Of a DNA stretch of 64,000 nt, positions 9,794 through 46,921 are shown piece by piece. The position numbers and the translations under genes were made by a program. The first letter of the stretch is position 1, and every line of letters begins with the position of its first letter. The notes under the pieces are model-generated. The model was not told the DNA's origin. It searched no databases and saw only the letters and a list, made by a program, of their open reading frames with translations. The stretch comes from Halarchaeum nitratireducens (GTDB lineage: Archaea; Halobacteriota; Halobacteria; Halobacteriales; Halobacteriaceae): assembly GCF_014647155.1 (NCBI RefSeq), contig NZ_BMOQ01000003.1, forward strand, positions 308,512-372,511, read 5' to 3'.

Positions 9794-9810
<17 letters not shown>

Positions 9811-9868
9811 GGCCAGCCGCCTTGCGGCGACTTCCCCTATCCTCCGACGTCGTCGTGTCTGACGTCAT
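9794..9868 (-). CDS. 24-codon leader frame before the LeuA/CimA-type gene
   Basis: ATG 9868 is preceded by GGAGGT at a 4-base distance and lies about 30 bases from a TATA-like TTTAAG (9896-9901, minus strand), so it is the first frame on the expected transcript. The peptide is rich in Thr, Ser and Arg and ends in REIRR; it has no run of Leu or Ile, so classical attenuation is unlikely. It overlaps GTG 9810 of the main gene, and a GCCGC/GCGGC hairpin sits inside it. Confidence 0.4.
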
Positions 9869-28774: not shown

Positions 28775-28909
28775 ATGTCCACGAACCGTCCCGCGGTCGG
28801 CCTCGATCACCTCACCGTCGTCCCGACGAACTACGACGACGACGCCGACGACGCCGCCGACGCCGACGACACCGCGGACGGGGACGCCACCGCTACCGAC
28901 GACGTATAA
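28775..28909 (+). CDS. 44-residue acidic haloarchaeal protein
   Basis: Small frame with a well-conserved-looking start (RPAVGLDHLTVVPTNY) followed by an Asp/Ala-rich tail. TAATACTTT lies about 28 bases before the ATG, so it is probably a real leaderless gene. Function unknown. Its last eight codons and stop are copied in the 47-bp repeat immediately downstream. Confidence 0.6.
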   Translation: MSTNRPAVGLDHLTVVPTNYDDDADDAADADDTADGDATATDDV

Positions 28910-28980
28910 CGTCGCGTCGCTGCTGCCCCGTCGCCACCGCCACCGACGACGTATAACGTCGCGTCGCTGCTGCCCCGTCG
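28887..28980 (+). repeat. 47-bp tandem repeat copying the 3' end of the preceding gene
   Basis: Two copies (28887-28933 and 28934-28980) differ by one base, with a few bases of a third. Each carries the codons for ATATDDV and the TAA, and each contains CGACGT-ATA-ACGTCG, a hairpin with the stop codon at its loop. Confidence 0.9.
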
Positions 28981-29112
28981 CCACCGATCGCCGTCCGTGG
29001 CTCGCCTCCCGCCGCGCCGCTCCCGTTTCGCTCGTCGGCGACCCGCTCGTAGACAGGGGCGAAAGCCGACGCGAACGAACGTTCTTAAGCCGCGCGAGCG
29101 GACAAAGGCGAT
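28981..29112. other. Intergenic, promoter of the next gene only
   Basis: No gene seen. GTTCTTAAG near 29081-29089 is a plausible TATA for the phosphodiesterase gene at 29113. Confidence 0.4.
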
Positions 29113-35445: not shown

Positions 35446-35548
35446 ACACCGGCCTACGATCCCTCGTTGCTAACAGCTCACCCGTGCGCGTGGTGAAAGT
35501 GAAAGTGGTCGCGTCGTGGCCTCAGACCCCGGTCCTCCGGTCACGTAT

Positions 35549-35566
35549 CAGTATAATTTTATTTCC
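35549..35566 (+). promoter_or_regulatory. AT-rich promoter candidate
   Basis: AGTATAATTTTATTTCC is a rare AT-rich patch and the likely TATA region for the transcript that starts with the 36-codon frame at 35652 and continues into the oxidoreductase at 35759. Confidence 0.4.
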
Positions 35567-35651
35567 TCTCCGCTCAACCGGGGGTTCGCACGCACCGAGC
35601 ACGCCGCGCGACCGTGTCCGTTGAAGTGGCCGCCGCGCCACCCCATCGGAT

Positions 35652-35762
35652 ATGCACGGACACGGACGCGCGGGCGACGGGCGGCGGGCCCCGGGACGGC
35701 CGGGTAGTCGGGCGTCGACGGGACGGCCGGGTGGTCGCGCGTCGACGGGGTGGCCGCGATGA
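35652..35762 (+). CDS. 36-codon Arg/Gly-rich frame before the oxidoreductase
   Basis: Starts at ATG 35652 and ends with CGATGA, where the TGA overlaps the ATG of the next gene by four bases. Its second half is made of a 27-bp repeat read as GRPGSRAST, GRPGGRAST and GWPR. The end TGWPR resembles the TGWSA/RGWLA ends of the short frames in the mrp operon. Product would be strongly basic. Translation is inferred from the overlap only. Confidence 0.4.
   Translation: MHGHGRAGDGRRAPGRPGSRASTGRPGGRASTGWPR
35693..35746 (+). repeat. 27-bp tandem repeat upstream of a start codon
   Basis: Two copies (35693-35719, 35720-35746) and a partial third running into GGGGTGGCCGCGATGAC, the ribosome-binding site and start of the next gene. 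Length 27 keeps the reading frame of the 36-codon upstream frame. Confidence 0.85.
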
Positions 35763-36811
35763 CGGCGCGCTCGGTCGCGGTCGTCGGCGGCGGCGCGGTC
35801 GGACTGACGGCCGCGTACGATCTCGCTTGTCGGGACGCGGACGTGACGCTGTACGAGCGCGACGACCTCGGGGCTGGGAGCACGTCGCGCGCGGCCGGCA
35901 TCGCGTACGACGCCTACGCGGAGGACGTCGACGTCGCGCTCGCCGAGCGCGCAATCGAGCGCTTTCGCTCCTTCTCGGGCGAACGCGACTTCCGCTTCGC
36001 ACGCACGCCGTACCTCTGGTTCGCAACGGAGGGCGGAGCGGCCGCGGGCGCGATCCGGGAACAAGTCGAGCGAATGCGCCACCACGACCGCGACGTCGAA
36101 CTCGTCGACGCCGAGGCGATCCGACGGCGGTTTCCGGTGTTGCGCGCGGACGACGTCGTCGTCGCCGGCCTCGCGCGGACGGCGGGTACGGTCGATCCTG
36201 CGGGCTACGTCGACCTGCTCGCGGCGAAGGCCCGCGACGCGGGCGCGGACGTGCGAACGCACACGACCGCGTCCGTCGCCCTCGACCCGCCCCGGGTGAA
36301 CGGCGCGGCGTACGACGCGGTCGTCGTCGCCGCGGGCGCGTGGACGGGCGACGTACTCGCGGACGCGGGCGTCTCCGTGCCCGTGGAGCCGTATCGCGTC
36401 CAGGCGGCCGTCGCCGGCGGGCCGGCGATCCCGATCCTCTACGACGCGACGCGGGAGTACTACGCCCGGCCGCACGCGCAGGGGATCATCGCGGGCGACG
36501 GCGTCACGACGCCGGTCGATCCCGACGACTACGACGGCGAGGCCGACGACGCGTTCCGCGATCGGATCGTCGAGCGCCTCCGCGAGCGCGTCGTGAACGC
36601 GAACGTCCCGATCGAGCGCTCGTGGGCGGGCGTCTGTGCGCGGACGCCGGACAACGATCCCCTGCTCGGCGAGGTCGCGGACGGTCTCTACGTCGGGGCC
36701 GGGTGGAACGGTCACGGGCTGATGCGCGCGCCGGCCGCCGGCGAGCGACTCGCGGAAGACGTGTTGGGAGAACGTGACGGCGTCGGCGCGTTCGATCCGA
36801 CGCGGTTCTGA
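35759..36811 (+). CDS. FAD-dependent oxidoreductase (DAO family)
   Basis: 350 residues. The FAD-binding loop is SVAVVGGGAVGLTAAYDLA, followed by YERDDLGAGSTSRAAGIAYD; the substrate domain includes RTAGTVDPAGYVDLLAAKA and the end WAGVCARTPDNDPLLGEV and LYVGAGWNGHGLMRAPAAGE is typical of glycine/sarcosine/D-amino acid oxidase-type enzymes. The amine substrate is unknown. ATG 35759 overlaps the upstream 36-codon frame. Confidence 0.88.
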   Translation: MTARSVAVVGGGAVGLTAAYDLACRDADVTLYERDDLGAGSTSRAAGIAYDAYAEDVDVALAERAIERFRSFSGERDFRFARTPYLWFATEGGAAAGAIREQVERMRHHDRDVELVDAEAIRRRFPVLRADDVVVAGLARTAGTVDPAGYVDLLAAKARDAGADVRTHTTASVALDPPRVNGAAYDAVVVAAGAWTGDVLADAGVSVPVEPYRVQAAVAGGPAIPILYDATREYYARPHAQGIIAGDGVTTPVDPDDYDGEADDAFRDRIVERLRERVVNANVPIERSWAGVCARTPDNDPLLGEVADGLYVGAGWNGHGLMRAPAAGERLAEDVLGERDGVGAFDPTRF

Positions 36812-46059: not shown

Positions 46060-46797
46060 TCACATCCGCTCGGGGTGGAGTCGTCGCGCCAGTGCCTCGA
46101 TCCCATCAATGAGCGCCGGACTCGGCTGATTGAGGAGCGCGTCGTCGAGGACGTGCACCTCGGCGTCGAGGCGCCAACCGCGCGCGTCGAAGTCCGGCCG
46201 AGCGCGGCCGTCCCGACCGCCACGCCCGCAGTAGTGCGCGACGACGTGGTCGGGGCCGGCGGCCTCGACCGTCTCCCGTTCGACCTCGCGCGAGCGGTCT
46301 CCCGGGTCGACGAAGGGGTGGCGTCCGCCCGCCGCCCGCACGGCGTCCGGGACCCAGTTTCCCGCCGCCATCGGCGGATCGTCCCACTCCTCGCAGTAGA
46401 CGACCGGCCGTGTGGCCCCCTCGACGGCCGTACGTATCGCCGCGACGCGCTCGCGGCAGTCGGCTTCGAGGCGCTCGCCGGCGGCGGCCCTGCCCACGTC
46501 GTCGCCCCGGATCGCGAACCCCGCGAGGACGTCGTCGAGGCGCGTCGGTTCGCGGTGTCGGACGTCGTGTCCCCGAGCGGCGAGTTCGTCTCGGACGTCG
46601 CGCTGGAGGGCGTCGCCGGTGAGGACGACGTCGGGATCGCACTCGGCGACTCGGTCGTAGTCGGGGTTCAGCCAGCCGCCGACCGGGGGCGCATCGATGT
46701 CCACGGTCGCGTTGTGCGTCACGCCGACGAGATCGGCTCCGGCACCGAGCGCGACGACGGTCGCCGTCGCGGCCGGCGCGAGCGAACAGACTCTCAC
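46060..46797 (-). CDS. Cobalamin-binding/helical-backbone metal receptor protein
   Basis: 245 residues, GTG start. It has the BtuF-like fold: RVCSLAPAATATVVALGAGA, LVGVTHNATVDIDAPPVGGW, YDRVAECDPDVVLTGDALQR and VVYCEEWDDPPMAAGNWVPD. There is no signal peptide or lipobox, so unlike true transporter receptors it may act inside the cell, or be a relative with another ligand. Divergent from tfb. Confidence 0.82.
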   Translation of the reverse strand: MRVCSLAPAATATVVALGAGADLVGVTHNATVDIDAPPVGGWLNPDYDRVAECDPDVVLTGDALQRDVRDELAARGHDVRHREPTRLDDVLAGFAIRGDDVGRAAAGERLEADCRERVAAIRTAVEGATRPVVYCEEWDDPPMAAGNWVPDAVRAAGGRHPFVDPGDRSREVERETVEAAGPDHVVAHYCGRGGRDGRARPDFDARGWRLDAEVHVLDDALLNQPSPALIDGIEALARRLHPERM

Positions 46798-46921
46798 GAA
46801 CGATACTGCCGTATGTGGCGCCTACGCATACCGCTGTCGGTCTATTACGGAACCGTTAAGTGCGTTTTGCGAAAAGAAAGGCGTCACGACGATTTCCGGG
46901 TTTTCCGGGGGCACACGCAGT

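Follow-up and report, generated by a model that had tools for sequence, protein, structure and literature searches.

The window analysed here, a stretch of 64,000 nucleotides, belongs to a Halarchaeum genome, in which it lies on a contig of 441 kb, and carries on its plus strand a gene for a FAD-dependent oxidoreductase of the DAO family (35759-36811, 350 aa; PF01266, E=1.1e-60). Directly in front of this gene lies an ATG frame of 36 codons (35652-35762, plus strand), which reads MHGHGRAGDGRRAPGRPGSRASTGRPGGRASTGWPR and terminates with TGA. This stop codon (35760-35762) overlaps the oxidoreductase ATG at 35759 in the sequence ATGA (35759-35762). We refer to the frame as a mini-cistron, which is probably leaderless; its start and reading frame are kept in congeneric species, while the peptide is not conserved.

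Anatomy of the mini-cistron and its putative promoter

A Shine-Dalgarno-like motif, GGGGTGG (35747-35753, plus strand), is found 5 nt upstream of the oxidoreductase ATG. The 3′ end of the 16S rRNA carries the CACCUCC region, and alignment of the motif to it by hand gave a pairing with two G.U wobbles. In other genera this site is stronger, with GGAGG in most of their loci, whereas the Halarchaeum site leans on wobble pairs.

Tandem Repeats Finder reported a 27-bp unit in 2.4 copies (score 102) at 35692-35756 on the plus strand. The two full copies (35692-35718 and 35719-35745) are in frame and differ at 2 of 27 positions; the remaining part is an 11-bp partial match, which continues into GGGGTGG. 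The original prediction, a 36-codon frame with an in-frame 27-bp repeat that overlaps the oxidoreductase ATG by four bases and extends its repeat into the ribosome-binding site, is thereby confirmed in its anatomy. Short repeat-containing ORFs with a 4-base overlap to a gene start are also known from the mycobacterial interspersed repetitive units (MIRUs; reviewed in PMC12548453), but those are mobile and dispersed. When 35500-35800 was searched against the whole genome, only matches of 24-37 nt and no second copy turned up elsewhere, so the repeat is a local duplication and 35652-35762 has no dispersed copies at other gene starts. A MIRU-like mobile element was ruled out on this basis. The top-scoring tandem repeat of the window is a different one, a near-perfect 47-bp repeat (2.2 copies, 98%) at 28885-28986, which contains GTATAACGTCGCGTCG.

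A TATA-like box, GTTGAAGTG (35620-35628, plus strand), is located about 31 bp upstream of the mini-cistron ATG, which is the position of a leaderless promoter, and TTGAAGTG was found at this distance in all four Halarchaeum genomes. From this spacing we infer that the transcript would begin at or beside the ATG at 35652. A position weight matrix (PWM) trained on 393 called genes, which peaks 30-31 bp ahead of start codons, gave 3.9 for the mini-cistron ATG and -6.2 for the oxidoreductase ATG, compared to 90% and 95% quantiles of 2.7 and 4.5 for random ATGs. The box at 35620 is thus modest by its score, and its conservation is the stronger argument. A higher value (4.7) was obtained for an AT-rich box at 35555, which is not conserved and at whose expected transcript start no ATG lies. 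The surrounding AT-rich stretch, GTATCAGTATAATTTTATTTCC (35540-35590), occurs in the window species only and is absent from the three congeners; it is possibly an extra promoter or an insertion. The initial choice of 35549-35566 as promoter is consequently not supported, since this segment is missing in three congeners and the conserved box is the one at 35620-35628.

Conservation of the coupling in Halarchaeum and across the order

The comparison within the genus comprised the four available Halarchaeum genomes, i.e. the window species, G001, G002 and H. rubridurum (G003); the closest relatives in the genome collection are H. rubridurum JCM 16108 and H. acidiphilum MH1-52-1. All four share TATGCACG around the mini-cistron ATG. 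The frame has 36 codons in the window species, 31 in H. rubridurum, 16 in G001 and 13 in G002, and in each case it ends on the oxidoreductase start, while the peptides vary both in length and in composition. Only the window species carries the 27-bp duplication; H. rubridurum possesses one copy of the unit together with a different in-frame duplication of 15 bp, and both lengths are multiples of three. In Halarchaeum the coupling is therefore kept while the peptide is not. The peptide ending STGWPR is common only to the window species and H. rubridurum, and its tryptophan arises where the mini-cistron frame runs through the GGTGG of the ribosome-binding-like site. As the congeners have other lengths and sequences, the earlier reading of the repeat and the Arg/Gly composition as parts of the design did not hold, and we regard both as incidental. 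The H. acidiphilum oxidoreductase ortholog (L023, contig C82 of G001) matches as two overlapping pieces, residues 1-213 and 204-350, which suggests that either the gene itself or its draft assembly contains a frame break.

These comparisons bear on two explanations in which the product itself matters. The frame might encode a functional small basic protein: it is open, its position is conserved, and some coupled short frames in the contigs sampled below are true small proteins. However, a Pfam search with the mini-cistron peptide gave no match, and a sequence that drifts between 13 and 36 codons in a single genus and tolerates tandem duplications is hardly compatible with this idea, which we consider highly improbable; a functional Arg/Gly peptide was rejected, as the sequence is neither matched in Pfam nor conserved. 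Alternatively, an Arg/Gly-rich leader peptide could sense amino acids or the substrate of the enzyme by attenuation or ribosome stalling. A short frame directly upstream of a metabolic gene would suit such a role, as would the conserved start and end codons in the window species and H. rubridurum. Against this, the peptides vary in length and composition across congeners and genera, the RNA fold of 35652-35800 is not better than those of shuffled sequences (z=-0.87), and no Rfam family matched at the mini-cistron. Neither conserved regulatory codons nor alternative RNA structures, the features of an attenuator, were found there, and regulation by a leader peptide appears quite unlikely. Elsewhere in the window, a leuA-Halobacteria RNA (RF03001) was detected on the minus strand at 9799-9851 with 69 bits against a threshold of 48 bits.

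A further explanation requires no function of the short frame at all. It could be an open frame arisen by chance in GC-rich DNA and left unused, with the oxidoreductase read from an ordinary leader on a transcript that starts at about 35586 from the AT-rich promoter at 35549-35566. Chance frames are indeed common in this GC-rich genus. Of 298 genes whose start reads NTGA in two sampled Halarchaeum contigs, 98 are preceded by an ATG frame of 10 codons or more that ends there, and among promoter-less out-of-frame ATGs 12 of 48 are coupled. The oxidoreductase start reads ATGA, therefore every frame in that phase stops there. A stop-start overlap at a single locus is weak evidence and not beyond chance, and the AT-rich segment exceeds the 35620 box in PWM score. 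What speaks against a chance frame is that ATG, box and phase are kept in four species whose frames differ in length, and that three of these species lack the AT-rich segment; that the coupled pattern recurs in four other genera; and that Shine-Dalgarno-driven initiation at a 5′-UTR was non-functional in Haloferax (PMC3986360). We hold this explanation to be unlikely, and overlap, conservation and promoter position, as read from the genomes, are together far beyond chance.

The recurrence was observed in a sample of 151 haloarchaeal oxidoreductase orthologs, whose upstream regions were classified with the box called by a fixed pattern. A leaderless-type box directly on the in-frame start was present in 27 of these, whereas in 14 the box belongs to an out-of-frame ATG whose frame of 10-41 codons ends on the oxidoreductase start via ATGA, GTGA or TGATG. 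The 14 coupled loci span five genera: Halarchaeum, g23 and g42 with four each, and g20 and g75 with one each. L054 has one more box-bearing out-of-frame ATG, located 143 nt upstream, which is uncoupled. Considering non-operon loci, out-of-frame ATGs are coupled in 14/14 cases with a box and in 5/31 without, which gives p=7e-8 in Fisher's test when ancestry is ignored and about 0.16^5 = 1e-4 when each genus is counted once. In the three genera with four members each, twelve different lengths were observed, all in phase; for the nine net differences this corresponds to (1/3)^9 = 5e-5.

A similar picture was obtained at other genes in about 0.82 Mb, sampled as stretches from two Halarchaeum genomes. 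Where a gene had no direct promoter, 15/20 promoter-bearing out-of-frame ATGs were coupled as against 12/48 controls (p=1.8e-4), though these counts are not all independent, because the two contigs are partly syntenic and some of the frames encode genuine small proteins (judged by eye as ribosomal L39e-like or zinc-ribbon). In the window genome alone the ratio was 8/9 to 4/20 (p=9e-4). One example is located in the window itself, where a second, probably leaderless mini-cistron, MRRRHIRQYRS (46794-46829, minus strand), has a GTGA overlap with a BtuF-like gene (46060-46797, minus strand). Its phase and 11-codon length are kept in H. rubridurum and G001, and in G002 a shifted GTG frame still ends on the BtuF-like start (TAGTG). 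Another putatively leaderless mini-cistron, MIETTVQTRVRAA with 13 codons, precedes a mutS-like gene (L175:10783-13508, minus strand), and its start and end are conserved in four species. At both genes, which were named by inspection of their sequences, the coupling is kept in 4/4 Halarchaeum species. A further orthologous pair, L175 (G000 C3:256548, plus strand) and L191 (G003 C4:184771, minus strand), comprises frames of 49 and 29 codons that both stop on the same gene start. The overlap measures 8 bases in one species and 4 bases in the other, so the coupling appears to be kept through a frame change. The proposal that the short frame is by design coupled to the oxidoreductase is supported by conservation, phase and promoter position, and the expected similar frames were encountered elsewhere in the genome, for instance before the BtuF-like and mutS-like genes. 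A TGW/RGW ending as general signature did not stand, as most promoter-bearing coupled frames lack it.

Probable origin from a creatininase cistron

In most other orthologs the oxidoreductase lies behind a full-length gene, which is a creatininase in 53 loci, typically with overlapping stop and start codons. In g23, the promoter and start regions of the mini-cistrons share a mean identity of 59% over 44 comparisons with creatininase starts of sister species, compared to 25% for a small null consisting of the only two other box-ATG sites found. An example of such a mini-cistron start is MSRTYLHEHTTTT, compared to MSRTSHSRRATT and MSCTNPHESATAT; at the protein level, MSRTYLHEHTTTTAAD can be placed alongside MSRTSHSRRATTAN, MSCTNPHESATAT and MPPTHLERATSGS. 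In g42, two regions match the creatininase of a congener, the tail (GGAGGTCCACCGCTGATGCGC versus GGAGGACCACCGCTGATGCGC) as well as the promoter (CTAAGTG-GACGGCCGTGA). With promoter and start matched in g23 and promoter and tail in g42, these mini-cistrons are most plausibly creatininase genes of which only the ends are left, i.e. the putative collapsed form of a first cistron that leads the operon in sister species.

For Halarchaeum, the comparison was made with the creatininase start of G008, another genus of the same family, and 0.006-0.10 of null promoters scored as high. The homology is suggestive, and an origin from a collapsed creatininase is likely here as well, though less certain than in g23 and g42. 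An element further upstream, GGTGAAAGTGAAAGTG (35492-35507, plus strand), is conserved family-wide in front of the oxidoreductase gene or its creatininase-led operon. The pattern GTGAAAGTGAAA has only 4 occurrences in the 3.14-Mb genome, with 1 for the reversed pattern as control; in its distal position it precedes the creatininase-oxidoreductase operon of G008 and, in relatives without a creatininase at this place, the oxidoreductase itself. The loss of creatininase from the Halarchaeum genomes was considered as a marker of the collapse and proved uninformative, since other creatininase genes are present.

A proposed translation relay and its relatives

We propose that 35652-35762 is a leaderless mini-cistron which passes ribosomes on to the oxidoreductase by termination-reinitiation and thereby serves as a translation relay, and we assign to this reading a probability of roughly 0.8. 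Transcription would begin at or adjoining the ATG at 35652, and a ribosome would initiate at the 5′-terminal AUG and translate a short, dispensable frame. At the UGA it would halt and reinitiate on the overlapping oxidoreductase AUG, aided by the Shine-Dalgarno-like GGGGTGG. Selection would then act only on the start, the frame, the lack of stop codons and the stop-start overlap, and the peptide could drift, including in-frame tandem duplications such as the one of 27 bp. A gene that starts within such a transcript and lacks its own leaderless AUG would depend on another, translated cistron to bring ribosomes, and the mini-cistron may supply this. In g23 and g42, the relay would have arisen when the leaderless creatininase cistron at the head of the creatininase-oxidoreductase operon collapsed.

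Several published observations agree with this mechanism. Leaderless mRNAs make up 72% of the protein-coding transcripts in Haloferax volcanii (PMC4983044); in this species, a Shine-Dalgarno motif did not drive initiation at a 5′-UTR (PMC3986360), and 9/9 tested gene pairs were strictly coupled by termination-reinitiation (Huber et al. 2019, PMC6728339). A 'delivery' role of short upstream ORFs has been discussed in a review (PMC12548453), and mycobacteria possess coupled leaderless small ORFs whose peptides are not conserved (Shell et al. 2015, PMC4633059).

The mycobacterial small ORFs are the closest relatives. They share the leaderless start, a size of 5-50 codons and the RTGA junction, and in both systems start and coupling are kept without conservation of the peptide, with leaderlessness deduced from the sequence in the haloarchaeal case. 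With 36 codons and ATGA the frame of the window species falls within these limits, as do those of its congeners (13-36 codons in the four species). The haloarchaeal mini-cistrons differ in belonging to archaea, in having ATGA as well as TGATG junctions, in a putative origin that can be traced to a collapsed first gene and in being described from sequence. The termination-reinitiation pairs of H. volcanii have the same ATGA or TGATG overlap and a Shine-Dalgarno-like motif before the downstream start. Both features are present here (ATGA; GGGGTGG at 35747-35753, Shine-Dalgarno-like by wobble only), but those pairs consist of full-length genes, whereas our upstream cistrons have 10-41 codons and no apparent function of the product. 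Frames of 15-31 codons were also reported upstream of H. volcanii genes (Babski et al. 2016, PMC4983044); in contrast, these are internal to leaders of 150-250 nt, have low isoelectric points and were not defined by a coupling overlap. In E. coli mRNAs, ribosomes bind to 5′-terminal uAUGs, which can have an effect on the gene that follows (Beck et al. 2016, PMC4965119), yet the downstream genes also have conventional Shine-Dalgarno leaders, and these uAUGs are defined without reference to a conserved stop-start overlap.

Coupled leaderless small ORFs in mycobacteria and reinitiation in Haloferax are already known; the new part is the proposed origin by collapse of a cistron. Our literature search, which covered papers outside subscription access, found neither the haloarchaeal form nor such an origin described. 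We suggest, at about even odds, a more general rule. Because leaderless starts are common and Shine-Dalgarno-driven initiation in 5′-UTRs is apparently weak in haloarchaea, a gene that needs termination-reinitiation could not simply lose its upstream partner; when the partner is deleted, a minimal leaderless stub in phase would be kept as a relay for ribosome delivery. Such stubs would have arisen repeatedly before the oxidoreductase and would be common at gene starts throughout the genome.

If this is true, haloarchaea possess an archaeal counterpart of the mycobacterial coupled leaderless small ORFs with a traceable origin, namely a first cistron of which start and stop are left. Many of the short frames that lie unannotated at the starts of haloarchaeal genes would then be initiation devices and not small proteins, with consequences for the annotation of start sites and the interpretation of small-proteome data.
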